DNA of 35,375 nucleotides from NCBI GenBank assembly GCA_005887995.1, contig VBJD01000086.1:1-35375 (forward strand), read 5' to 3'. Position 1 is the first letter of the stretch; each line of letters opens with the position of its first letter. This document shows positions 1 to 14,725 of this stretch, one piece after another. The position numbers were made by a program, and so were the translations under genes. The notes under the pieces are model-generated. The model saw nothing but the letters and a program-made list of their open reading frames with translations, made no database searches and was not told the origin of the DNA. Origin of the DNA: Chloroflexota bacterium (GTDB taxonomy: Bacteria; Chloroflexota; Limnocylindria; P2-11E).

Positions 1-452
1 CCCAACGTCACCGCCTCAGCGAGCGCGGCATCGCGCGCGGATTGATCCCAGTCCACGAAGTCGCGATCGACGCGGATGACCGTGCCCGACGCGACCGCGC
101 GCACGGCTGTGCCCGCGCGCGCCGGAAAGTCGATGCCCTCGTGCCAGCCCGCGCGGAAGTCGCGCGGCGCGTTCGGCAGCAGCGACGGATCGGTCGGCAC
201 CTCCGCGCCTTCGATCGGCACCATGAGACCGCGGACCGCGGGTCGCGTTCGCACCGAGCGATCGTCGTCCGCGAGCCGTCCGCGCTCCGCGTTGGGATCG
301 ACGCGTGACGTCACCGCGGGATCGGCGGTCCACAGCGGCGCAGCCGTCGCCAGCGCGGCCGGGATCGTGCGAGAGGCGGGCCGCAGGGTCACGGCCGCGA
401 TCGAGATGAGGAGGAACGTGATCGCGCCGGTCGCCGCGAGGCCCAACCGCAT
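1..452 (-). CDS. M23-family metallopeptidase-like protein, partial (runs off the window start)
   Basis: Reverse-strand translation MRLGLAATGAITFLLISIAAVTLRP...FRAGWHEGIDFPARAGTAVRAVASGTVIRVDRDFVDWDQ; the HEGIDF...AVASGTV pattern is typical of M23/LytM domains. Signal/TM-like N-terminus. Not in the ORF track because it has no stop in the window. Confidence 0.7.
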   Translation of the reverse strand, partial: MRLGLAATGAITFLLISIAAVTLRPASRTIPAALATAAPLWTADPAVTSRVDPNAERGRLADDDRSVRTRPAVRGLMVPIEGAEVPTDPSLLPNAPRDFRAGWHEGIDFPARAGTAVRAVASGTVIRVDRDFVDWDQSARDAALAEAVTL

Positions 453-459
453 CGTCGGC

Positions 460-468
460 TAGACTCTA
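460..468. promoter_or_regulatory. Overlapping divergent -10 elements in palindrome TAGACTCTA (TAGACT on +, TAGAGT on -)
   Basis: Lies between the divergent M23 gene (ATG at 452-) and pyrR; TAGAGT ends 10 nt before the - strand ATG. Confidence 0.45.
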
Positions 469-490
469 CGGAGCGCGCCACCTTTAACGA

Positions 491-513
491 CCGGTCCTGA
501 GAGGCCGGGAAGG
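491..513 (+). promoter_or_regulatory. PyrR-binding RNA loop overlapping the pyrR ribosome-binding site
   Basis: CCGGTCCTGAGAGGCCGGGAAGG matches the PyrR-binding consensus (UCCNGNGAGGYU...AAG), closed by a CCGG/CCGG stem; the AAGGAAA SD is adjacent, 5' of GTG 524. Confidence 0.8.
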
Positions 514-523
514 AAATCACTGA

Positions 524-1096
524 GTGGGCACGCGAAGCTCTGGGGGCACGCCCCGCACCGTCCTGCTCGGCGCCGACGACGTCCGTCGTGCGGTCTCCCG
601 CATCGCTCACGAGATCGTTGAGCGCGACCGCGACCTCTCCGCGCTCGCCATCGTCGGCATCCGCTCGCGCGGCGACGTCCTCGCGCAGCGCCTGCGGGAG
701 GCGCTACGCGTTCACGAGCACGTCACAGTACCGCTCGGCGCGCTCGACATCACGCTCTACCGCGACGACCTCACGCGCATCGGGTACGCGCCCGTCGTGC
801 ACGAATCCGCGCTCGACTTCTCCGTCGACGACAAGGTCGTCGTGCTCGTCGACGATGTGCTCTTCACCGGCCGGACGATCCGCGCCGCGCTCGACGCGCT
901 CGTCGACTACGGCCGGCCGCGCGCTATCCGGCTCGCCGTGCTCGTCGATCGCGGTCACCGCGAGCTGCCGATCCGCGCGGATTTCGTCGGCAAGAACGTA
1001 CCGACGCGCGCGACCGATGACGTACGCGTGCATCTCGTCGAGGTGGATGGCCGCGATGAGGTCGAGCTTGTCGCGAGAGAGCAGGTGATCGCATGA
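524..1096 (+). CDS. pyrR: Bifunctional pyr operon transcriptional regulator/uracil phosphoribosyltransferase PyrR
   Basis: [16 protein letters not shown] and PRPP-binding motif [22 protein letters not shown]; operon context; GTG start. Confidence 0.95.
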
Positions 1097-2064
1097 CGGT
1101 GCTGGAGCAAGCGAAGGCGCTGCGCTGGACGCGCCGCCACGTGCTCGACACCGACGACTGGACGCGCGACGAGATCGAGGCAGTCCTCGAGACGAGCGGT
1201 GCGATGGTCGAGATTCTCAAGCGGCCCGTGCGCAAGGCGCCGCCCCTGCGCGGGAAGACGGTGATCCTCTTCTTCGCCGAGGCGTCGACGCGCACGCGTG
1301 TGTCGTTCGAGCTCGCCGCGAAGGCGCTCTCCGCGGACGTGACGACGATCAGTGCGAGCGGCTCGAGCGTCGAGAAGGGCGAAACGCTCCTCGACACCGT
1401 GCGGACGCTGCACGCGCTCGGCGGTGATGTCGTCGTGATGCGACACGCATCGTCGGGCGCGCCGTACTTCGTCGCGGAGCGCAGCGACGCCGCCGTCATC
1501 AACGCCGGCGACGGGTGGCACGCGCACCCGACGCAGGGGCTGCTCGACGCGTACACGCTGCGCGGCGCGCTCGGAGATCTGCAGGGAAAGCGGATTGTCA
1601 TCGTCGGCGATGTCCTGCACAGCCGCGTCGCGCGTTCCGACATCCACACCCTGGTACCGCTCGGCGCGCGCATCACGCTCTCGGGCCCGCCGACGCTCAT
1701 GCCGCTCGCGTGGCGGCGCGGGCAGCTGCCGGCCTGCGTGACATACGAGGCCGATCTCGACCGCGCGCTCGAGGACGCCGACGGCGCTATCGCGCTGCGC
1801 CTTCAGAAGGAGCGACAGGAGGGCGGTCTGCTCCCGTCACTGCGTGAGTACAGCCGCGTGTGGGGGCTTACTGAGGCTCGAGTGCGCCTCATGCGTCCGA
1901 ACGCGCCGGTGATGCACCCCGGGCCGATGAACGAGGGCGTGGAGATCGACGCCGCCGTCGCGCACGGCGCGCGATCGCTCGTCGAGCGACAGGTGACGAA
2001 CGGTGTCGCGGTGCGCATGGCCCTCCTCTACCTGCTCGTCGGGACGCCGCTGGACGAGCATTAG
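1093..2064 (+). CDS. pyrB: Aspartate carbamoyltransferase catalytic subunit
   Basis: [45 protein letters not shown] motifs; 4-nt overlap with pyrR. Confidence 0.95.
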
Positions 2065-3305
2065 TGGACAGGCGAGAACTGGAGCGCCAGGGCCACCTCG
2101 TCACGCGCGGCTTCATCGATCTGCACGCGCACCTGCGCGAGCCGGGCTTCGAGGAGTCGGAGACGATCGCGACCGGCGCGCAGGCCGCGCTGCGCGGCGG
2201 GTTCACGACGGTCTGCGCGATGCCGAACACCGAGCCGGCGATCGACTCGCCCGGACTTGTCGCGGAGGTCATCGCGCGGGGCAAGGCCGCCGGTGGCGCG
2301 CGCGTCTTGCCGATCGCGACGGTCACGCGCGGCCGCAAGGGGAAGGAGCTCGCCGACCTCGTCGAGCTCGCCTCCGCCGGCGCGGTCGCGTTCTCGGACG
2401 ACGGCTCACCCGTCGACGACGCGCGGCTCTTCCGCAGCGCCGTCGAGTACGCGAGCGTTAAGGGGCTTCTCGTCATCGAACATCCGGAGGACCTTGCGCT
2501 GTCCGGTAAGGGCGTGATGAACGAGGGTAGGGTGTCCGCAGCGCTCGGCCTCCCCGGCATCTCGAACGCGGCGGAGGAAACCGCCGTCGCGCGCGCGATC
2601 CTCGTCGCCAGCGAGCTCGACGCGCACGTCCATCTCACGCACATCTCGACTGCCGGTTCGGTCGACATGATCCGGGCGGCGAAGGAACGCTCCATACCCG
2701 TGACGTGCGACGTCACGCCGCATCACCTCGCGATGACCGATGACTGGGTGCGCGGACGGCGAGCGTTCGCGTGGGAACAGGGGCTGAAGGGGGAGCAGAT
2801 CTCGGGCGCGCCGGCCGATGGCACGCCGTTCGACGCGAATACGAAGATGAACCCGCCGCTGCGCAGATTGCACGACGTGCGCGCGCTCTGGATCGGGCTC
2901 GCCGACGGCACGATCGACGCGATCGCTACCGATCACGCGCCGCACGCGAGCGTTCGCAAGGACGTCGAGTTCGATCAGGCGGCGTTCGGGATCAGCATGC
3001 TCGAGACCGCACTCCCGCTGGTCCTCGGTGGAGTGCGCGCCGGTTGGTGCGATCAGGACACCGCGCTGCGGGCACTGACCGACGGACCGGCACGCGTGCT
3101 CGGCATCACACCGAACGCCGACGACTGGATCGCCATCGACGTTGGCGCGACGTGGACGGTGAGCGCGGACGCCCTCGCAACGCGCGGAAAGAACACACCG
3201 CTTCTCGGCCGCGAGCTTCGCGGGCGCGTCGTCGCCGCGGCCGTGGGCGGTGATGTCCGGTTCGACGGAGGTGCGCGTGAGGAGATACGTGCCGGGGTCC
3301 GCTAA
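2064..3305 (+). CDS. pyrC: Dihydroorotase
   Basis: FIDLHAHLREPGFEESETIATGAQAALRGGFTTVCAMPNTEPAID; IDAIATDHAPH; GTG start. Confidence 0.95.
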   Translation: MDRRELERQGHLVTRGFIDLHAHLREPGFEESETIATGAQAALRGGFTTVCAMPNTEPAIDSPGLVAEVIARGKAAGGARVLPIATVTRGRKGKELADLVELASAGAVAFSDDGSPVDDARLFRSAVEYASVKGLLVIEHPEDLALSGKGVMNEGRVSAALGLPGISNAAEETAVARAILVASELDAHVHLTHISTAGSVDMIRAAKERSIPVTCDVTPHHLAMTDDWVRGRRAFAWEQGLKGEQISGAPADGTPFDANTKMNPPLRRLHDVRALWIGLADGTIDAIATDHAPHASVRKDVEFDQAAFGISMLETALPLVLGGVRAGWCDQDTALRALTDGPARVLGITPNADDWIAIDVGATWTVSADALATRGKNTPLLGRELRGRVVAAAVGGDVRFDGGAREEIRAGVR

Positions 3306-3344
3306 GCACAAGCGCGCGGACGGCCGTGTCCTCGCGGAGCGCCA

Positions 3345-3383
3345 ATTGCATCTTTATTCATCCGCAACGTATAGTTATGCACC
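3345..3383. promoter_or_regulatory. Tandem ArgR/AhrC-type ARG boxes overlapping a carA-proximal promoter
   Basis: Box 1 core TGCATCTTTATTCA (reverse complement gATGAATAAAGATGCAAtt, nearly the AhrC consensus); box 2 core CGTATAGTTATGCA starts exactly 21 bp later. A -10-like TATAGT (3370-3375) lies 9 nt before ATG 3385. Confidence 0.75.
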
Positions 3384-3384
3384 T

Positions 3385-4554
3385 ATGAGCAGGGCGGCCG
3401 TGCTCGGCCTCGAGGACGGCAGCGCGTGGTGGGGAGAGGCGTTCGGCGATGCGGCGTCGGCGTCCGGTGAGGTCGTCTTCAACACCGCGATGACCGGTTA
3501 CCAGGAGATCGCCTCCGACGCCTCGTACAACGGGCAGATCGTCGTCCTCACGTATCCCCTCATCGGCAACTACGGCACGTTCGATCGCGCCTCCGAGTCA
3601 CGGCGCCCGTGGGTCGAAGCGCTCGTCGTGCGCGAGATCGAGACGACGTGTCGCGACGACACGCTCGACCTCGACGCGTATCTCCGCCAGTACGGCGTCC
3701 CCGGCATCGCCGGCGTCGACACGCGCGCGCTCGTGCGACGTCTGCGCGCGAAGGGCACGCTGCGCGGCGCGCTGCTTCAGGTGCCGCCGCACCTCGCGCA
3801 CGATCCCGGAGTGGCGCAGGAGGCCGTCGCGAAGGCGCGCGCCTCGGCACCGCTGCAGGCGAAGCCGCTCGTCGTCGAGTCCACCGGTCTGGGGCGTCAG
3901 GTCGGTACGCAGACCTATTGGTCTGCTAAACAGGGGCCCCTGCCCCTGGGTCCGAAGGTCGCGCTGCTCGACACGGGCGTGAAGGAGAACCAGGTGCGCT
4001 GCCTCGTCCGGCGCGGCGCGACCGTGAAGGTCTTTCCCGCGACGGTGAGCGCGCGCGACGTCCTTTCGTGGTCGCCCGACGGCATCGTCATCACGAACGG
4101 TCCCGGCGATCCCGCGGCCATCCCGCAGATCGCGCAGAACGTGAGGCTCCTGCTCGACGCGGCACTCCAGCGCGGCGCCTCGCGTCCGCTTCCGATCCTC
4201 GGCATCTGCCTGGGCCATCAGCTCGTCGGCCGCGCGATCGGCGCGACGACGTCACGACTGCCGTTCGGCCATCACGGCGCCAACCATCCGGTGAAGGACT
4301 TGCGGACCGGTCGCGTGGTCATCACGAGCCAGAACCACGAGTTCCAGGTCGACGAATCCTCGATCCCCGCCGATTCGGACTTCGTCGTCTCGGCGCGCAA
4401 CCTCAACGACGGGTCCGTCGAGGGTCTCGCACACACGCTGCTGCCGATCCGCACCTATCAGTACCACCCCGAAGGCGCGCCCGGCCCGCGCGACAACGAG
4501 GCGGTGTTCGACGCCTTCCTCGACGACGTCCGGAGCGCGGTGGAGCGGCGATGA
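3385..4554 (+). CDS. carA: Carbamoyl-phosphate synthase small (glutaminase) subunit
   Basis: MSRAAVLGLEDGSAWWGEAFG..., EVVFNTAMTGYQEI, GICLGHQL, SQNHEF, QYHPE. Start placed at 3385, not at the track start 3250, which is inside pyrC. Confidence 0.95.
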   Translation: MSRAAVLGLEDGSAWWGEAFGDAASASGEVVFNTAMTGYQEIASDASYNGQIVVLTYPLIGNYGTFDRASESRRPWVEALVVREIETTCRDDTLDLDAYLRQYGVPGIAGVDTRALVRRLRAKGTLRGALLQVPPHLAHDPGVAQEAVAKARASAPLQAKPLVVESTGLGRQVGTQTYWSAKQGPLPLGPKVALLDTGVKENQVRCLVRRGATVKVFPATVSARDVLSWSPDGIVITNGPGDPAAIPQIAQNVRLLLDAALQRGASRPLPILGICLGHQLVGRAIGATTSRLPFGHHGANHPVKDLRTGRVVITSQNHEFQVDESSIPADSDFVVSARNLNDGSVEGLAHTLLPIRTYQYHPEGAPGPRDNEAVFDAFLDDVRSAVERR

Positions 4555-5378
4555 CGCGCCACGAGTACGCGCTGCTCGACGTATTCAGCGACAAGAAGTT
4601 TGGCGGCAACCAACTCGCGGTGTTCCGCGACGGCCGCGGTGTCCCAGAGAGCGCGATGCAATCGATCGCGAAGGAGCTGAACCTTCCCGAGACGGTATTC
4701 GTCCTCCCGCCCGCGAACGACGGCGACCACTACCTTCGCATCTTCACCCCGGCGCGCGAGCTTCCGTTCGCCGGGCACCCGACGGTCGGCGCCGGCTTCT
4801 ACCTTGCCAAGGGGAAGGACGCGACGCTGCGTCTCGAAGAGAGGGTCGGCACGCTTCAGGTCACCGTGCGTGCCGGGTTCACCGAGATGGAGCAGCCACT
4901 CCCGCACTTTGCGCCTGGCCCGAATCGGGCGAAGATCGCATCGGCCCTCTCGCTGCTCGAGTCGGATATCGATCCGTCACTGCCGATCGAGATCGGGTCG
5001 AGCGGCAACGAGTTCATCTTCGTCCCGGTCCACGGCATCGACATGGTGAGGAAAGCCGCGCCGCGCGGGCTGACCGACGCCGCGTTCATCTTCACACGCG
5101 AGACGCTCGCGCCGTCGTCGACCGTGCATGGCCGGATGTACGCCGGATGGCAAGGCGTCGCCGAGGATCCCGCGACCGGATCGGCGTGCGGTCCGCTCGG
5201 CGCGTACCTCGTGCGCCACGGGCTCGCGGACGGCAAGCGCATCGTCGTCGAGCAGGGATACGAGATGGGCCGCCCGTCGCTCCTCTACGTCCGCGTCGGC
5301 GGCGATCGCGACAAGATCACGAGCCTGCACGTCGGCGGCCACGCCGTGATGACGGGGGGCGGATGGATCGAGCTGTGA
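4551..5378 (+). CDS. PhzF family (phenazine biosynthesis-like) isomerase/epimerase
   Basis: YALLDVFSDKKFGGNQLAVF...LNLPETVFVLPP...LRIFTPARELPFAGHPTVGAGFYL...GRMYAGWQGVAEDPATGSACGPLGAYLV; ATGA overlap with carA. Confidence 0.88.
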   Translation: MTRHEYALLDVFSDKKFGGNQLAVFRDGRGVPESAMQSIAKELNLPETVFVLPPANDGDHYLRIFTPARELPFAGHPTVGAGFYLAKGKDATLRLEERVGTLQVTVRAGFTEMEQPLPHFAPGPNRAKIASALSLLESDIDPSLPIEIGSSGNEFIFVPVHGIDMVRKAAPRGLTDAAFIFTRETLAPSSTVHGRMYAGWQGVAEDPATGSACGPLGAYLVRHGLADGKRIVVEQGYEMGRPSLLYVRVGGDRDKITSLHVGGHAVMTGGGWIEL

Positions 5379-5394
5379 CGAGGAAGGGCGAGCC

Positions 5395-5527
5395 AGCGGC
5401 GCGCCGCGAGCGGTGTCTCGCGCGCGGAGCGGGACGGATGGCCGCAACTGTCCGCCGACGTAGTGCGTGCTGGTCGGCGGCTACAGGGACCCGCGAGCAC
5501 GCGAGACACCCGAGAAGGCGCGCCGCT
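5395..5527 (+). repeat. Nested inverted repeat / structured leader between the phzF-like gene and carB
   Basis: Perfect 11-bp outer arms AGCGGCGCGCC (5395-5405)/GGCGCGCCGCT (5517-5527); perfect 11-bp middle arms GGTGTCTCGCG (5412-5422)/CGCGAGACACC (5500-5510); CGCGG/CCGCG; inner hairpin CTGTCCGCCGAC (5448-5459)/GTCGGCGG-ct-ACAG (5473-5486). Confidence 0.7.
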
Positions 5528-5544
5528 GCCGAGCGGACCAGGGC

Positions 5545-8500
5545 ATGAAGGTCCTGATCATCGGCTCCGGTCCGATCGTCATCGGCCAGGCCGCCGAGTT
5601 CGACTACGCCGGGACGCAGGCGTGCCGGGCGCTTCGCGAGGAGGGCGTCGAGACGGTCCTCGTGAACTCGAACCCCGCGACGATCATGACCGACGCCGGC
5701 GTCGCGGACGTGACATACATAGAACCGCTCACGGTCGACGTGCTCGAGCGGATCATCGCGAAGGAGCGGCCCGACGGCTTGCTGCCCACGCTCGGGGGGC
5801 AGACCGGCCTCAACCTTGCGGTCGCGCTCGCGGAAGCGGGCGTCCTCGAGCGCTACGGCGTGCGCCTCCTCGGAACGCCGCTGCGCGCGATCCAGCAGGC
5901 CGAGGACCGCGAGGCATTCAAGCAGTTGCTCATCTCGATCGGCGAGCCCGTACCGGAGTCGATCACCGCGCGCAATGTCGACGACGCGACCGTGTTCGCC
6001 GAGCGGATCGGCTTCCCGCTCGTCATCCGTCCCGCGTTCACGCTCGGCGGCACAGGTGGCGGCTTCGCGCACGACAGCGACTCGCTGCGGGCGGTCGCGC
6101 AGCGCGGCATCAGCGCGTCGCCGATCGGCCAAGTCCTCGTCGAACGATCGCTCATCGGCTGGAAGGAGATCGAGTACGAGGTCATGCGCGACGGCGCGGA
6201 TACCTGCATCACGGTCTGCAACATGGAAAACCTCGATCCGATGGGCATCCACACCGGTGACTCGATCGTCGTCGCGCCGTCGCAGACGCTGACCGACAAG
6301 GAGTACCAGATGCTGCGCAGCGCGGCGCTGCGCATCATCCGCGCGCTCGGCATCGAGGGCGGCTGCAACATCCAGTTCGCCTTGGATCCCGAGCGATCGC
6401 CTGTCAGCGACGCCGAGGCGCAGGTCCCGTATTACGTCATCGAGGTCAATCCCCGTGTGTCGCGGTCATCCGCGCTCGCGTCGAAGGCGACCGGCTATCC
6501 GATCGCACGCGTCGCGGCGAAGATCGCGATCGGCAAGCGCCTCGACGAGATCCCGAACGCGGTGACGAAGAAGACGACCGCCGCGTTCGAGCCCGCGCTC
6601 GACTACGTCGTCACCAAGATCCCGCGCTGGCCGTTCGATAAATTCGCGGGCGCGGATCGCACGCTCGGCACCCAGATGAAGGCGACCGGCGAGGTGATGG
6701 CGATCGACCGCACCTTCGAGGCGAGCCTGCAGAAGGCACTGCGCTCGCTCGAGGTGAAGGGGCAGGGCCTCCTCTGGGAAGCGCCCGCGTGGGTCGAGGT
6801 CACCGATCCGAAAGCGTTCATCGCGCGCTTCCTCACCGGGTCCGCGACGGACGATCGCCTCTGGCGCGTCTTCGCCGCGCTGCGCCGCGGCGCGACGGTC
6901 GACGACGTACACATGGAAACCCGGATCGATCGCTGGTTCCTGCGCAAGATGTCGAGCATCGTGCGCTTCGCCGAGGATGAGCTGCAGGGCAAGACGCCCA
7001 CGCCGGATCTGCTCCGCCGCGCGAAGCGACTTGGATTCGCCGACTCGGATATCGCGACGCTCGTCGGCATGTTGGCCGCCGACGTGCGCCGCCTGCGAGT
7101 GCAGTGGGGGATCCGGCCCGTCTACAAGATGGTCGACACGTGCGCGGCCGAGTTCGAGGCGGTGACGCCGTACTTCTACTCCACGTTCGAGCAGGAGAAC
7201 GAGGCGGCGCCGCTCCTCGGTGAGAAGGCGGTGATCATCGGCAGCGGTCCGATCCGCATCGGCCAGGGCATCGAGTTCGACTGCTGCTGCGTGCAGGCCG
7301 CGTCGAGCCTGCGCGAGTTGGGCGTCGCGCCGATCATGGTGAACAGCAATCCCGAGACGGTGTCGACGGACTTCGACGCGTCCGCGCGCCTCTACTTCGA
7401 TCCGCTCGACGAGGAATCGATCGCGAGCGTGTTGGAGAACGAAGGAAGCGATAGGGGAGGCAAAAGCGACACGCAGGTGCTCACGCAGTTCGGCGGGCAG
7501 ACCGCGCTGAACGTGGCGGAGAAGATCGCGGGCATCGGCGGCCGCATCGTCGGCACGTCGGCGGACGCGATCGCGCTCGCGGAGGATCGGCGCCGATTCC
7601 ACGACCTCGCGGACGCGCTGGGCATCCCGCAACCGCCGGGCGGGACCGCTGCATCGCTCTCCGAGGCGCTCGCGATCGCGAACGAGATCGGCTACCCGGT
7701 GCTGGTGCGTCCTTCGTACGTCCTCGGCGGACGCGGCATGGAGATCGTCTACGCGCCGGAGGACCTCGAGCGCTACTTCCACGCCGCGCTCGAGGCAGGC
7801 ACCGGCCGCGTGCTCGTCGACAAGTACTTGCGCGGCAAGGAGGTCGAGGTCGACGCGGTCTCCGACGGTATCGACACGCTCGTCGCCGGGATCATGGAGC
7901 ACATCGAGCGCGCTGGCGTGCACTCCGGCGACTCGTACGCGGTCTACCCCGCACAGAACCTCCTTCCCGCGGAGCGCCGACGCATCGTCGAGCTCACCGC
8001 GCAGATCGCGAAGGCGCTGCCGGTGAGAGGCCTCCTCAACATCCAGTTCATCGTCGAGGAAGGCCGCGTGTGGGTGCTCGAGGTGAACCCGCGCAGCTCG
8101 CGCACCGTGCCGTTCCTCACGAAGGTCACCGGCGTGCCGCTGGTGCGCCTCGCGGTCGCGATCTCGCTCGGCTCGACGCTCGCGACCGAGGGCTACGTCC
8201 GCGACGAGGGCATCTGGCCGGATCAGCCGCTCGTCGCGCTGAAGGCGCCGGTGTTCTCGATGGCCAAGCTCCTCGACGTCGACACGTATCTCGGCCCCGA
8301 GATGAAGAGCACCGGCGAGGTCATGGGCGTCGATCGCTCGTTCCCGCCGGCGCTGTGGAAGAGCCTCGTCGCCGCCGGGCTCGCCCCGATGCCGAGCGGC
8401 GACGTGCTCGTCACCGTCGCGGACAAGGACAAGGAGGAGGTCGTGCCGATCATCGAGGGCTTCCACTGGCTCGGATACGACCTCGTCGCGACACGCGGGA

Positions 8501-8814
8501 CCGCGGCGCTCGTACGGTCACTCGGCATCGACGTTCGCGAGGTGGGCAAGCTCTCCGAAGGCGCCGACGAGATCCTCAAGGTCATCCGCTCGGGACGCTG
8601 CGCCGCGGTCGTGAACACGCCGACGCTCGGGAAGACCGTCGATCGCGACGGCTTCCTCATCCGCCGCGCCGCCGTTGAGGCGCGAGTGCCATGCCTCACG
8701 TCACTCGACACGGCGCTTGCGGTCGTGCAGGCGCTGCGCGCTTCCGCGGTCAGCTACGACGTCGCACCGCTCGCGGACTACCGTTCGCCCGAGCGCGCTA
8801 CCGCGGCGGAATAG
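5545..8814 (+). CDS. carB: Carbamoyl-phosphate synthase large subunit
   Basis: [34 protein letters not shown]; duplicated ATP-grasp halves (second begins [27 protein letters not shown]); C-terminal MGS-like domain. ATG 5545 preferred over 5467. Confidence 0.97.
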
Positions 8815-8825
8815 AGGAGGGGAGC

Positions 8826-9437
8826 ATGTCCGTCATCTACCACGAGGGGAACCGCGACCTTCAGCAACGATTCGACACGACGAGGATCGCCGATCGCATC
8901 GAAGAGGTCCTCGTCTCAGATGTCATCTCCGTTCATGACCGATCCTTCATCGAATCGCGGGACATGTTCTTCCTCGCCACCGCTGACGACGCCGGTCTGC
9001 CGAACTGCTCATACAAGGGCGGCGAGCCGGGATTCGTGCGCGTCATTGACGAGCACACTGTCGCCTTCCCGAACTTCGACGGCAACGGCATGTACCTCTC
9101 GATGGGCAACGTCCTGGTGAACCCCGCCGTCGGCATGCTGTTCATCGACTTCGAGCGCGGCCACCGCATGCGACTCAACGGCAACGCGACGATCGACGCG
9201 AACGATCCGCTCATGAGCGAGTACCCAGAGGCGCAGTTCATTGTGCGCGTGCGTGCGCGCGAGGTGTTCCCGAACTGCCCGCGCTACATCCATCGGTACA
9301 AGCTCGTCGAGCGTTCGCGGTTCGTCCCGAGGAAGGGCAAGACGACGCCGGTCCCGGCGTGGAAGTGCGCGGAGTGGTCCGCGGACGCGCTCCCCGAGCG
9401 AGATCCCGCGCGCGATCCGACGCGCGAGGTGCTCTGA
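8826..9437 (+). CDS. Pyridoxamine 5'-phosphate oxidase-like FMN-binding split-barrel protein
   Basis: RDMFFLATADDAGLPNCSYKGGEPGFVRVIDEHTVAFPNFDGNGMYLSMGNVLVNPAVGMLFIDFE; SD GAGGAGGGGAG. Confidence 0.82.
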   Translation: MSVIYHEGNRDLQQRFDTTRIADRIEEVLVSDVISVHDRSFIESRDMFFLATADDAGLPNCSYKGGEPGFVRVIDEHTVAFPNFDGNGMYLSMGNVLVNPAVGMLFIDFERGHRMRLNGNATIDANDPLMSEYPEAQFIVRVRAREVFPNCPRYIHRYKLVERSRFVPRKGKTTPVPAWKCAEWSADALPERDPARDPTREVL

Positions 9438-10624
9438 TCCGGGCGGAGACCGTAACCCAGCGCGCTGCGCCCGCTCTCGCGAACGCGTTCGTCACCTCGG
9501 CGTCGCTCATCGGCGACACCCTCCTGTACACGGTCCTGCCGGTCCAGGCGAGCTCGCTCGGCGTGTCGCGTCCGATGGTCGGGGTCATCCTGTCGCTGAA
9601 CCGCTGGGTGCGGCTCGGCACGAATCCCCTCGCCGCGCGCCTCTACGAGCGGCTGCCCGCGGGCGCGCTCATCGTCGTCGCGATCCTGCTCACCGGTGTC
9701 TCGACGGTCATGTACGCGCTGCCGGCGGCGCTGGCGCTCTTCTTTTTGGGCCGGATCCTGTGGGGGTTCTGCTGGTCGCTGCTCCGTCTCGGCTCGTTCC
9801 TCGCCGCGCTCGAGGACGCGAGCGCGCACGCTGGGCGGCGCATCGGCAACACGCGCGCCATCTGGGGCATCGGCTATCTCGGCGGCGCCGTGTATGCGCC
9901 GTTCGCCGTCGAGGCGTGGGGTTGGACGAATGCGTGTCTGGTGGCCGCGGCGCTGTCGATCGCGCTCGGGATCGGGCCGGCGCTCATCGCGTCGAGTTGG
10001 CGGCGCCGCGTCGCGATCGATGCCGAGAGCGGTGTGCCCGCGTCCGTCTGGCAATCGCGCTACCTGGTGTTATTCGTCGCTGCGACGATCCAGTTCTCGC
10101 TCTTCGCCGGGATCGTCGTCGCGGCCGGTGGGTTCCGCATCGACGAGCTCTTCCACGGTGGCGCACCGATCGGTGCGACGCTCGTACCCGCGACGTTCAT
10201 CGCCGCGGGCTTCGCGCTCACGCAGCGGATCGCGCAGGTCGCATGGACGCCGATCGCGGGGCGCTGGAGCGATCGCTCGACGTCGTTCGCGTTCGTCGCG
10301 TCGACGCTCCTCTCGCTCGTCTCGATCGCCGCCCTTGTGGCTGAGCCGCCCGCGCTCCTCTTCGTGCTCTTCGGCGGGAGCGCGTTCGTCAACGGACTCA
10401 CTGCGACGATCGCCGTCGAACTCGCCGTCGCGCGGCGGTCGCGAGAGATCGATCGGCCGCGGATCCTCGCCGCGCTCCACACCTGGCAAGACGCCGGTGC
10501 GGCGGCCGGGGCTCTCGCGGGCGGTGTGCTCGCGGCCTTCGGCGCCTCAGCCGCGCTCCTCGCCGGCGCCGCGCTGCTCGCGTTGACGTTGCCGCTCTGG
10601 TGGGCGAGCGTGGTGCGGCCATGA
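9359..10624 (+). CDS. MFS-type transporter (true start uncertain; GTG at 9359, 9365 or 9374, or a later non-ATG codon)
   Basis: Multi-TM hydrophobic protein: NAFVTSASLIGDTLLYTVLPVQASSLGVSRPMVGVILSLNRWVRLGTNPLAARLYERL..., TM-rich to the C-terminus. Confidence 0.8.
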   Translation: MEVRGVVRGRAPRARSRARSDARGALIRAETVTQRAAPALANAFVTSASLIGDTLLYTVLPVQASSLGVSRPMVGVILSLNRWVRLGTNPLAARLYERLPAGALIVVAILLTGVSTVMYALPAALALFFLGRILWGFCWSLLRLGSFLAALEDASAHAGRRIGNTRAIWGIGYLGGAVYAPFAVEAWGWTNACLVAAALSIALGIGPALIASSWRRRVAIDAESGVPASVWQSRYLVLFVAATIQFSLFAGIVVAAGGFRIDELFHGGAPIGATLVPATFIAAGFALTQRIAQVAWTPIAGRWSDRSTSFAFVASTLLSLVSIAALVAEPPALLFVLFGGSAFVNGLTATIAVELAVARRSREIDRPRILAALHTWQDAGAAAGALAGGVLAAFGASAALLAGAALLALTLPLWWASVVRP

Positions 10625-11076
10625 CGACGAAGCGGACCGAGGCACAGAAATGGAGCGTTACCGCGGGTGACTACGGCCGCACGCTCAAAGGGCTCTCGCT
10701 CAACCTGCTCGTGCGCGACATCGATCGCAGCCTGCCCTTCTACACCGAGGTCCTCGGTTTCCGCGATCTGCACCACGATCCCGACTTCGCCGCGCTCGAG
10801 CGCGACGGCGTGAACCTCGTGCTCCACGCCGATCACGCCTACGCCGCGCAGCCGTGGGCGCCACGGCTCGCGGAGCAGGGCAAGCGAGGGTTCGGCGCGG
10901 AGATCCGCATCCTCGGCATCGAGCCGGAAGATGCCGAGCGCCGGGCGCGCGAGCGCGGGCACACCGTGCTCTATCCCACGAAGGAATGGCCGCACGGCTG
11001 GCGCGACGTCGTCCTCGAAGACCCGGACGGCTACACCTTCGCGGTTGGCGTTCCCGTCGGACAATCTGTCCGATAA
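10621..11076 (+). CDS. VOC/glyoxalase superfamily protein
   Basis: SLNLLVRDIDRSLPFYTEVLGFRDLHHDPDFAALERDGVNLVLHADH...VVLEDPDGYTFAVGVP. Confidence 0.85.
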   Translation: MTTKRTEAQKWSVTAGDYGRTLKGLSLNLLVRDIDRSLPFYTEVLGFRDLHHDPDFAALERDGVNLVLHADHAYAAQPWAPRLAEQGKRGFGAEIRILGIEPEDAERRARERGHTVLYPTKEWPHGWRDVVLEDPDGYTFAVGVPVGQSVR

Positions 11077-11095
11077 CATGCCAGATATGTTATCG
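11071..11095. promoter_or_regulatory. Candidate toxin-antitoxin autoregulatory operator
   Basis: Perfect inverted repeat CGATAACAT-gccagat-ATGTTATCG spanning the antitoxin start codon(s). Confidence 0.6.
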
Positions 11096-11368
11096 CCGAA
11101 GCGGACGGCCCGGCGGCGCGTGAAGATCGGGGCAACGCTCGACCCGGATCTCCTGAACGCCGTCGACGCTTACGTCGCTAGCCATCCTGGGAGTGATCGG
11201 AGCGCGGTCATCGATGAGGCGCTGAAGCTGTGGCAGGAGCGCGAGCAGGGTCTCGCGATGGAGCGACAGATCCGCGAAGACGCGAAGTATTACGACGATC
11301 CGGACCGTGTCGCATGGCGAGAGATTCGCGATGCGGCCGCGGCTCGCACTTTCTCGAAGCGTCGATGA
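11078..11368 (+). CDS. Ribbon-helix-helix antitoxin-like protein
   Basis: RRRVKIGATLDPDLLNAVDAYVASHPGSDRSAVIDEALKLWQEREQG matches the RHH pattern; directly precedes a MazF-like ORF with ATGA overlap. Confidence 0.75.
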   Translation: MPDMLSPKRTARRRVKIGATLDPDLLNAVDAYVASHPGSDRSAVIDEALKLWQEREQGLAMERQIREDAKYYDDPDRVAWREIRDAAAARTFSKRR

Positions 11369-11727
11369 CCGCGACGCCATCGCGTGGTGAGATCTGGTCG
11401 TGTCGCCTACCTGGCAAGGCTGACGACCCGCACCAGCCGCGGCCGGCCATGGTCATCTCGGCGGACGTCCGCAATCGTCTGGCCGACGACGTGATCGTGA
11501 TCCCGATCTTTTCGCGCGGTGCTTTCGGTCCAACACACATACCTCTCGCAGCTGGGCAAGGTGGCATCAAGAAGCCCAGCGTTCTGTTCTGCGAGGAGAT
11601 CACGACCATCGACCGAGGGTTCGTCGTGCGCGGCCCTTGGGGCGATCGCGTGGAGGACGACGTCCTGCGCGCGGCGGTTCGCGCGGTCCGCCGCGCGCTC
11701 GGTGAGACTCTACCCGAGCCGCTGTGA
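11365..11727 (+). CDS. PemK/MazF-family mRNA interferase toxin
   Basis: RGEIWSCRLPGKADDPHQPRPAMVISADVRNRLADDVIVIPIFSR... matches the MazF core (RGEIW...RPAVVIS...VVPI). Confidence 0.82.
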   Translation: MTATPSRGEIWSCRLPGKADDPHQPRPAMVISADVRNRLADDVIVIPIFSRGAFGPTHIPLAAGQGGIKKPSVLFCEEITTIDRGFVVRGPWGDRVEDDVLRAAVRAVRRALGETLPEPL

Positions 11728-12548
11728 TCATCGAGGACGGCCGCGTCGTCGCGAGCACGCAGATCGGCGAACTCGGGGCGCTGCTCTCGATTTACGCGCC
11801 GGATGTCGCCTCGCGCGCGAGCGCGGGTCAGTTCGTCCATGTGCGACCGGGCACCGGATGGGACCCGCTGCTGCGCCGTCCCTACTCGTTCTGTCGCATA
11901 GATCGTCGTGGCGGCGAGGTCGAGCTCATCGTGAAGCCGCTTGGGCCGGGCGGCGAGTGGATCGCGACGCGCCACGTCGGCGAGACGCTCGACCTCCTTG
12001 GGCCACTCGGCACCGCGTTCGTCGTCCGTCGCGACACGAAGAACCTGCTTCTGGTGGCAGGCGGCACGGGCATCGCACCGATGCGTGTCATCGCCGAGCA
12101 GGAGGCCGCGCGACGCAGCGTGACGCTCGTCATGGGCGGGCGGAGCGTCGCATACCTCTGGCCCTCCGATCGACTTCCCGCGTCGGTCGAGTACGTCGCG
12201 ACGACGGACGACGGATCGTTCGGCATCAAGGGCCGGGTCACCGACGTCATGCCCGATCTGCTCGGCTGGGCAGACCAGCTCCTCGCGTGCGGTCCGTGGC
12301 CGATGCTCGCGGCGATCGGACGCATGCGCGATGACGCGGCGCGAGGTCCGGTCGTGCCGGGCCGTCAGGCGCTCATCGATGCGCAGATCGCGGTCGAGCA
12401 ACACATGGGCTGCGCGATGGGCGTCTGCCGGGCCTGCGTCATCGTCACCGCGAACGGGAACGCCCGCGTCTGCCGCGAGGGTCCGGTGTTCGCGCTCGGC
12501 GACGTCGCGTTCGAAGCCGGCGAGCCCGCTACGGTGGGACTCACGTGA
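11724..12548 (+). CDS. pyrK: Dihydroorotate dehydrogenase electron transfer subunit
   Basis: GQFVHVRPGTGWDPLLRRPYSFCRID; VAGGTGIAPMRVIAEQ; C-terminal 2Fe-2S site QHMGCAMGVCRACVI...RVCREGPVF; GTGA overlap with the toxin gene. Confidence 0.93.
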   Translation: MIIEDGRVVASTQIGELGALLSIYAPDVASRASAGQFVHVRPGTGWDPLLRRPYSFCRIDRRGGEVELIVKPLGPGGEWIATRHVGETLDLLGPLGTAFVVRRDTKNLLLVAGGTGIAPMRVIAEQEAARRSVTLVMGGRSVAYLWPSDRLPASVEYVATTDDGSFGIKGRVTDVMPDLLGWADQLLACGPWPMLAAIGRMRDDAARGPVVPGRQALIDAQIAVEQHMGCAMGVCRACVIVTANGNARVCREGPVFALGDVAFEAGEPATVGLT

Positions 12549-12573
12549 TACGTCCCGGGACGGGCCTCGTCTG

Positions 12574-13773
12574 ATGCCCTGGCGCCGACCACGTAAACCC
12601 GATCCACGGATGCCGAGCGCGCGCGTCTCGCCCGAGGAGCGCCTCGAGCACGCGGCCGAGGGCGAGGAGGAGCGCGACGCGGTCGAGCTCGCGTCTCTCG
12701 ACGGTGCGACGATCATCGAGGCCGCGACCGGTGAGCCGGAGGAAGCGGTCGCGACGCCGTCGATCGCGATCGATGCCGAGCGCCTCGCCGACGCGCAGAT
12801 CGTCACGACGAAAGAGGAGACGTGGCCGGAGCGCGGGGTCGATCTCGAGGTCGACGCCGCGCGCGGCCTCCGTCTGAAGAACCCCGTCCTCACGGCGTCG
12901 GGGACGTTCGGCCAGGGCATCGAGTACGCCGAGCTCATCGATGTGTCGCGGCTCGGCGCGATCGTGAACAAGGGCACGACGCGCAACCCGCGGCCGGGCA
13001 ACCCGCAGTACCGGATCGCCGAGACGCCCGCGGGCATCCTCAACTCGATCGGCCTCGAGAACCCCGGCGCGGCAGAGGTCGCGCGCGTCTACGGACCGAA
13101 GTGGGCGAAGCTGCGCGTCCCGGTGATCGTGAACGTCGCGGGATACAGCGTCGACGACTATGTCTTCGTCGTCGAGGCGCTCGCGCAGACACCTGGCGTC
13201 GTGGCGTTCGAGCTCAACATCTCGTGCCCGAACGTGGAGGGCGGCCTGCTCTTCGGTCAGGATCCCGCGCTCGCGGCGGAGGTGACGCGCGCGGTCCGCG
13301 AGACGACGGACCTGCCGGTCATCGTGAAGCTCACGCCGAGCGCCACCGACGTGGTTGCGGTCGCCCGGGCGGTCGAGGAGGCCGGCGCCGACGGACTCAC
13401 CGCGATCAACACCGTCCTTGGCATGCGCATCGACACCGCGAAGCGCCGGCCGATCCTCGGCACCGGCAGCGGCGGCCTCTCCGGACCGGCGATACGACCG
13501 ATCGCCGTGCACATCACCTATCAGGTCGCGCAGGCGGTCTCGATCCCGATCATCGGCGCCGGTGGTGTGACGAGCGCGGATGACGCGCTCGAGTTCCTTA
13601 TGGCCGGCGCCTCCGCGGTGCAGGTGGGGACGGCGACGTTCGCGGATCCGGAGGTGCCGCTCCGTGTGATCGAGGGCCTCGCCGCGTACGTCCGTGAGCA
13701 GAAGCTGTCGTCGATCCGCGACGTCATCGGGGCCGCGCTACCGAACGGGGGACGCATGGTGCCGCGTGGCTGA
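12574..13773 (+). CDS. pyrD: Dihydroorotate dehydrogenase, class 1B-like, with N-terminal extension
   Basis: GLRLKNPVLTASGTFGQGIEYAELIDVSRLGAIVNKGTTRNPRPGNPQYRIAETPAGILNSIGLENPG; AFELNISCPNVEGG; adjacent pyrK. Confidence 0.93.
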   Translation: MPWRRPRKPDPRMPSARVSPEERLEHAAEGEEERDAVELASLDGATIIEAATGEPEEAVATPSIAIDAERLADAQIVTTKEETWPERGVDLEVDAARGLRLKNPVLTASGTFGQGIEYAELIDVSRLGAIVNKGTTRNPRPGNPQYRIAETPAGILNSIGLENPGAAEVARVYGPKWAKLRVPVIVNVAGYSVDDYVFVVEALAQTPGVVAFELNISCPNVEGGLLFGQDPALAAEVTRAVRETTDLPVIVKLTPSATDVVAVARAVEEAGADGLTAINTVLGMRIDTAKRRPILGTGSGGLSGPAIRPIAVHITYQVAQAVSIPIIGAGGVTSADDALEFLMAGASAVQVGTATFADPEVPLRVIEGLAAYVREQKLSSIRDVIGAALPNGGRMVPRG

Positions 13774-14725
13774 CGAACTCAGCTTCGGTCCGTTCTTCTT
13801 GCTCGATAGGGCCGCCCGCGAGCGTCTGCGCGCGCTGGCGACGCGGACGACGCTGCAGCAGGGCGACGTGCTCATCGAGGAGAACTCCACCGGTGACGAC
13901 GCGTTCGTCCTCATCGAGGGCGCGGTGCGGGTGCTCGCGCGTGGCGACGAGCGCACGCTCGCGCTGCTCGGCGCGCCCGCGCTCGTCGGCGAGGTGGCGC
14001 CGGTGCGCTCGACGAAGCGCACCGCGACCGTGGTGGCCGACACGCCGTGCACGGTGCTCAAGATCCCTGGCGACGAGCTGCGCGAGCTCATCACGGCGCA
14101 GCCGCTCTTCGGCACGGCGATGCGCGAGCGCACCGATCTCGTCGTCGCGGACGCGTTCATGAAACGTCACAGCCCGTTGCGCGATCTGCCGGCGGAGATC
14201 GTGAGCGCGCTCGCCGGCCGCCTGCGGCCGCGCGAGTTCGCGCCGGATCAGCTCATCGAGGGCCGTGACGACGATCTGTACCTGGTGCGTCGCGGCGCGA
14301 TCGAGCAGCTTGCCGACGGCCATCGCACGCCCGCCGGTGAATTCGTGCAGCGCGAGCGCGACGAGCGTTACTCGGCCGTGGGCGAGACGTGGATCTACGA
14401 GCTGCGCATGGCCGACGTCGCGAAGGAGATCATCGCGCATCAGGAGCGCGTCCGGACCATCGCCGCGCAGCTCGGCGACAAGGTGAAGGTGCGTGCGAAC
14501 CGAACCACGATCGCGGTGCGCGACCCACAACTCGGCGGCGCGCTCGTGCGCGACGCGGGCGAGCATCGCGCGGTCGTGTCAGACAACGTCGGTGCGCTCG
14601 TCGAGAAGCTCGATGGCAAGCACGACGTCGACACCTTGGTGCGCGACTCGAAACGCCCACGCGGCGAGATCGTCGAAGGGCTTGCCATCCTGATCGCCGC
14701 GGGCATCGCGAACATCGAGGAGTAG
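13766..14725 (+). CDS. Cyclic nucleotide-binding-domain protein with a C-terminal PqqD-like segment
   Basis: LQQGDVLIEENSTGDDAFVLIEGAVRVL...LVGEVAPVRSTKRTATVVA (cNBD-like); C-terminal RAVVSDNVGALVEKLDGKHDVDTLVRDSKRPRGEIVEGLAILIAAGIANIEE resembles PqqD/winged-helix domains. Confidence 0.6.
   Translation: MADELSFGPFFLLDRAARERLRALATRTTLQQGDVLIEENSTGDDAFVLIEGAVRVLARGDERTLALLGAPALVGEVAPVRSTKRTATVVADTPCTVLKIPGDELRELITAQPLFGTAMRERTDLVVADAFMKRHSPLRDLPAEIVSALAGRLRPREFAPDQLIEGRDDDLYLVRRGAIEQLADGHRTPAGEFVQRERDERYSAVGETWIYELRMADVAKEIIAHQERVRTIAAQLGDKVKVRANRTTIAVRDPQLGGALVRDAGEHRAVVSDNVGALVEKLDGKHDVDTLVRDSKRPRGEIVEGLAILIAAGIANIEE

Follow-up and report, generated by a model that had tools for sequence, protein, structure and literature searches.

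Type II toxin-antitoxin (TA) modules are generally organised with the antitoxin gene first and with an overlap of a few nucleotides between the two genes, and repression at the operator is enhanced by the toxin-antitoxin complex (PMC4803016). In the mazEF-rsbUVW-sigB locus of Staphylococcus aureus, a TA pair of the MazF family heads unrelated genes with which it is co-transcribed, and the mazEF promoter is needed for full activity of these downstream genes (PMC4885055). A weak terminator follows mazEF in this locus, and MazE is reported not to autoregulate the mazEF promoter (PMC4885055). The role of chromosomal TA modules is a long-standing matter of dispute. A literature search for TA modules in pyrimidine operons, with most subscription journals outside its coverage, returned nothing relevant.

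The window studied here, a stretch of 35,375 nucleotides, is a contig of a 3.0-Mb MAG of a soil Chloroflexota bacterium that is 86.7% complete and is labelled G000 in the comparisons below. It carries, on one strand, a cluster with the gene order pyrR-pyrB-pyrC-carA-phzF-carB-PNPOx-MFS-VOC-RHH-mazF-pyrK-pyrD, as assigned with Pfam and NCBIfam (see table), although for pyrK the NCBIfam PRK00054 models score under their cut-offs. An earlier note on this DNA had described an RHH-MazF toxin-antitoxin pair within the pyrimidine operon, and such a pair, of type II, is indeed found between the VOC gene and pyrK. The overlaps that it claimed are also present, namely ATGA between antitoxin and mazF (11365–11368) and GTGA between mazF and pyrK (11724–11727). 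Its statement that the VOC gene ends just before the operator has to be corrected, since the VOC stop codon TAA (11074–11076) falls within both the inverted repeat and the putative -10 element. An assembly artefact or chimera is unlikely, because the mazF-GTGA-pyrK junction was found again in two other MAGs.

Table. Features of the pyr cluster and the embedded TA module in the window.
Feature	Position	Strand	Remarks
pyr leader	460–523	+	-10-like TAGACT at 460–465; hairpin ACCGGTCCTGAGAGGCCGG at about 490–508, next to the pyrR start
carB	5467–8814	+	Borders the variable interval on its 5' side; NCBIfam carbamoyl-phosphate synthase large subunit
VOC (glyoxalase-like)	10621–11076	+	Directly 5' of the antitoxin; Pfam Glyoxalase, E 7e-8
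Inverted repeat CGATAACAT-N7-ATGTTATCG	11071–11095	+	Candidate RHH operator; exact 9-bp arms
Candidate -10 TAACAT	11074–11079	+	7 nt before ATG 11087 (Met4); overlaps the VOC stop codon
RHH antitoxin	11078–11368	+	Start probably at ATG 11087 (Met4); alternative in-frame ATG at 11078
mazF (PemK/MazF mRNA interferase)	11365–11727	+	Pfam PF02452; homologue alignment
pyrK	11724–12548	+	GTG start; dihydroorotate dehydrogenase electron-transfer subunit; Pfam DHODB_Fe-S_bind
pyrD	12574–13773	+	Dihydroorotate dehydrogenase catalytic subunit; Pfam DHO_dh, E 9e-82; start read from sequence

At the head of the cluster, pyrR begins at 524 and its product exceeds one NCBIfam cut-off. A TCCTGNGAGGCC hairpin is kept in the pyrR leaders of most relatives, and hexamers similar to the candidate -10 of the antitoxin (TATACT, TACCAT, TAAACT, TATAAT) are found before the pyrR leader in relatives. 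The leader hairpin, with TCCTGAGAGGCC beside the ribosome-binding region, resembles a PyrR-binding loop and is placed where it would be suited to repress translation; a scan of positions 1–14000 against Rfam gave no match at E values up to 1, this hairpin included. In addition, a TATAGT hexamer precedes the likely ATG of carA (3385) by 9 nt (window 3365–3387), as a possible internal leaderless promoter.

The toxin gene product matches the Pfam family PemK_toxin (PF02452) with an E-value of 3.2e-16 and a score of 59.9 bits (cut-off 23.1). Its core residues are invariant in the alignment of homologues, and its nearest solved relative by sequence is the mycobacterial MazF7. The antitoxin by itself gave no match in a Pfam search, but a family profile built from seven homologues retrieves Rv0298, an antitoxin of solved structure (E 1e-4), and, more weakly, RHH proteins of the MazE9/CopG type, and four of these seven family members match RHH_1 (best E 0.0007). 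The order of the two genes, with the antitoxin first and overlapping the toxin by ATGA, is that of a type II module. AlphaFold contributed little: the MazF model has a pLDDT of 46 and is unusable, and in the RHH model the helices alone are predicted with confidence.

Members of this MazF subfamily were found in six of the 177 genomes of the class, all six within a single family of 28 genomes. Five of them, spanning three genera, sit in the interval between carB and pyrK, and these five modules form one clade (support 100/99); the sixth (G018) is located away from this interval. The arrangement is VOC-TA-pyrK in the window, carB-TA-pyrK in G014, TA-pyrK in G027 (where the contig stops within the antitoxin), MFS-TA-VOC-pyrK in G012 and VOC-remnant-pyrK in G001 (L054). 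When the search was widened to 400 genomes of the phylum, the subfamily was found in 18 additional ones, with no pyr gene in the stretch surrounding these loci. No other MazF was found beside pyrK in the class when the coordinates of PF02452 and PyrK matches were compared by eye. Soil Chloroflexota MAGs are among the related named records. Across the family, the carB-pyrK interval (L049–L073) varies in length, with about 55 bp in G022 and 4.5 kb in G005 as the extremes, and also in content, its genes including MFS, VOC, PNPOx and methyltransferase-like ones among others.

Several comparisons bear on how the module arrived at this locus. G012 and G013 share 88–89% DNA identity on both flanks of the TA genes, which in G012 lie exactly between MFS and VOC. 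Because this MFS/VOC junction is empty in G013 and G015, and also in the window itself, the G012 insertion is most simply taken as derived, and as distinct from the position between VOC and pyrK. On a pyrK-pyrD-carB tree, the distribution of the module requires at least four changes. Constraining the three pyr-locus copies from the same genus to one clade gave an AU p-value of 0.086, which is compatible with vertical descent followed by numerous losses as well as with transfer between relatives. In the GC-richer G014 the composition of the TA genes is close to that of the host (mazF GC3 93%), and the module has therefore likely been resident for a long time in at least one lineage; in G000, G012 and G027 the GC content of the module is lower than that of pyrK.

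The copy in G001, judged from its sequence, is decaying in place. The RHH domain is gone, mazF lacks the N-terminal RGEIW segment, and downstream of mazF there is a short ORF similar to the C-terminal end of the antitoxin, so that the toxin comes first and the antitoxin second. This remnant is what would favour the idea that the module in the window is likewise an inactive relic on its way out. We regard this as highly improbable, since both ORFs are intact in G000, G012 and G014 and the core residues of MazF are invariant across homologues. Moreover, dN among the intact copies (0.19–0.32) is well below dS (0.98–2.9, with synonymous sites partly saturated), so that purifying selection appears to act on them. 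Any benefit that the module confers is dispensable, as far as the comparison of genomes indicates, because most relatives lack the module and the copy in G001 has decayed. The proposal in the earlier note that the module stabilises the operon is hard to reconcile with this decay and with the persistence of the operon in most relatives, which have no TA module there.

The overlaps by themselves are weak evidence, because four-base overlaps are routine in this cluster (also found at pyrR/pyrB and MFS/VOC) and because relatives without the TA module at that point share the GTGA at pyrK. In such relatives the VOC gene often terminates on this GTGA (e.g. G012, G013 and G002), as the conserved pyrK start is usually GTGA; the overlap can thus not be read as specific for the TA module. 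Chance as the entire origin of the overlaps was nevertheless rejected, as copies of a single TA clade are found repeatedly at this locus. Each of the four intact pyr-locus copies has a mazF that closes with GTGA and thereby overlaps the gene that follows, namely pyrK in G000, G014 and G027 and VOC in G012; among 19 stand-alone homologues, a terminal GTGA occurs in about one. No Shine-Dalgarno-like match was found before mazF or pyrK in the window; the PNPOx gene is preceded by AGGAGG. The suggestion of translational coupling is thus sustained in part: the overlaps and the missing Shine-Dalgarno-like matches fit with it, but the GTGA overlap does not single out the TA module.

These observations are also relevant to the possibility that the module is a selfish passenger in a permissive gap, persisting through addiction and its flush position against a needed gene without any role in pyrimidine control, in which case the overlaps would reflect nothing beyond compact gene packing. 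The varied genes that the interval houses in relatives (those listed above), the lack of the module in most relatives, its decay in G001 and the commonness of four-base overlaps in the cluster all agree with such a passenger. On the other hand, five of the six copies in the family and at least two separate insertion points within one interval exceed what is expected for random sites, and all intact copies overlap the next gene, unlike their stand-alone cousins. We therefore consider a passenger without regulatory role a serious alternative, albeit a somewhat unlikely one.

A putative promoter could be identified directly at the antitoxin start. In 13 of 19 antitoxin homologues, an in-frame start is preceded at a distance of 5–9 nt by a hexamer of the form TANNNT, and in 12 of these the distance is exactly 7 nt; when every ATG of these sequences is taken, the background is 3.0%. 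The true difference is somewhat less pronounced, because one to five starts were considered per homologue and some homologues are close kin and hence not independent samples. Many stand-alone copies read TGCTANNNT, resembling an extended -10, and G014 has TATCAT at the same 7-nt spacing. In G012 the -10 hexamer is absent and the inverted repeat is only partial. In the window the repeat (11071–11095) spans both the hexamer and the antitoxin start, and G014 has an exact repeat, ATCATGTC-g-GACATGAT, with the same centre as that of the window and different arm letters. As 9-bp arms occur in about 1% of random 60-bp windows, the repeat is a suggestive candidate for an RHH operator. A scan for sigma-70 promoters detected no full promoter here, and its single terminator-like match was within chance level; no terminator was seen between the TA genes and the genes downstream. 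The recurrent spacing suggests that transcription of the module probably starts from a leaderless promoter of its own.

Such a promoter has to be weighed against simple read-through from the PyrR-controlled promoter, by which the supply of antitoxin would track pyrimidine demand and an excess of pyrimidines would free the toxin. The common strand, the gap-free arrangement and the hairpin resembling a PyrR-binding loop at the head of the cluster are compatible with read-through alone, but the fixed-spacing -10 hexamer is shared with stand-alone homologues, which cannot use a pyr promoter. Furthermore, G015 (L052) and G005 (L053) have a 12-bp perfect hairpin directly 5' of pyrK, and the cluster therefore does not form a single unit in every relative. 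Read-through as the sole source of TA transcripts is accordingly quite improbable in our view, and an internal promoter is probably to be preferred over plain co-transcription, with the 5' transcript boundary probably being the module's own. In both G015 and G005 the hairpin is followed by a shared CTGCGAGACTTG element, suggesting that pyrK-pyrD begins a new transcript there.

A -10-like element is found 6–7 nt before pyrK in G015, G012, G013, G019, G020 and G022, as well as in the outgroup G154 (background 1.0%). It is absent in all four genomes with mazF or its remnant immediately 5' of pyrK, and also in most genomes of genus g2 in which VOC abuts pyrK. Hence pyrK-pyrD may be a transcription unit of its own in part of the group, which would explain why the carB-pyrK gap tolerates insertions. 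Since a TA promoter is predicted and the pyrK element is missing where mazF abuts, pyrK-pyrD probably depends in part on the autoregulated TA promoter. It could be speculated that the TA insertion displaced a leaderless promoter of pyrK, leaving pyrK-pyrD to be transcribed chiefly from the autorepressed TA promoter. We advance this promoter capture tentatively and consider it rather doubtful; if true, the RHH-to-MazF ratio would tune UMP synthesis and loss of the module would cost pyrimidine prototrophy.

We propose, with moderate confidence, that a type II RHH-MazF module entered the stretch of accessory genes that separates carB from pyrK and became a gap-free part of the operon, bringing its own leaderless promoter (TAACAT, with ATG 11087 as start) covered by the inverted repeat. 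Binding of the RHH-MazF complex to this repeat would result in autorepression. Transcripts from the TA promoter would run through antitoxin, toxin, pyrK and pyrD, with mazF and pyrK translated by re-initiation at ATGA and GTGA, respectively, and pyrK-pyrD expression would stem in part from the TA promoter and in part from read-through from the PyrR-linked promoter upstream. Promoter activity, operator binding, coupling, toxin activity and the effect on UMP synthesis are all inferred from sequence, and the regulatory link to UMP synthesis that the earlier note suggested is a plausible hypothesis.

By regulating itself, the toxin may thus also determine how much of a central metabolic enzyme is made. 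One family offers a natural series in a core metabolic operon, with an empty site, two insertion points, and intact as well as decayed copies, which permits a direct test of TA modules as passengers, as anchors against deletion or as regulators of host genes. It also adds a biosynthetic case to arrangements of the mazEF-sigB type.

The closest published arrangement found is that of mazEF-sigB in S. aureus, where a MazF-family TA pair likewise precedes unrelated genes. The partners there are stress regulators, whereas here they are biosynthetic, the genes adjoin without a gap and a leaderless promoter is predicted. The M. tuberculosis RHH antitoxins Rv0298 and MazE9 and the toxins MazF7 and MazF9 are the nearest solved sequence relatives of the two proteins, albeit distant matches in a different gene context. 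The stand-alone RHH-MazF modules of Chloroflexota (L085–L102, L077–L079 and G018) belong to the same subfamily, with MazF proteins that are about 46–63% identical and the antitoxin gene first, and many likewise have a -10 hexamer 7 nt 5' of the antitoxin start. Unlike the pyr-locus copies, their mazF genes mostly end in TAA, TAG or TGA without a GTGA overlap, and no pyr gene is present in the stretch examined.
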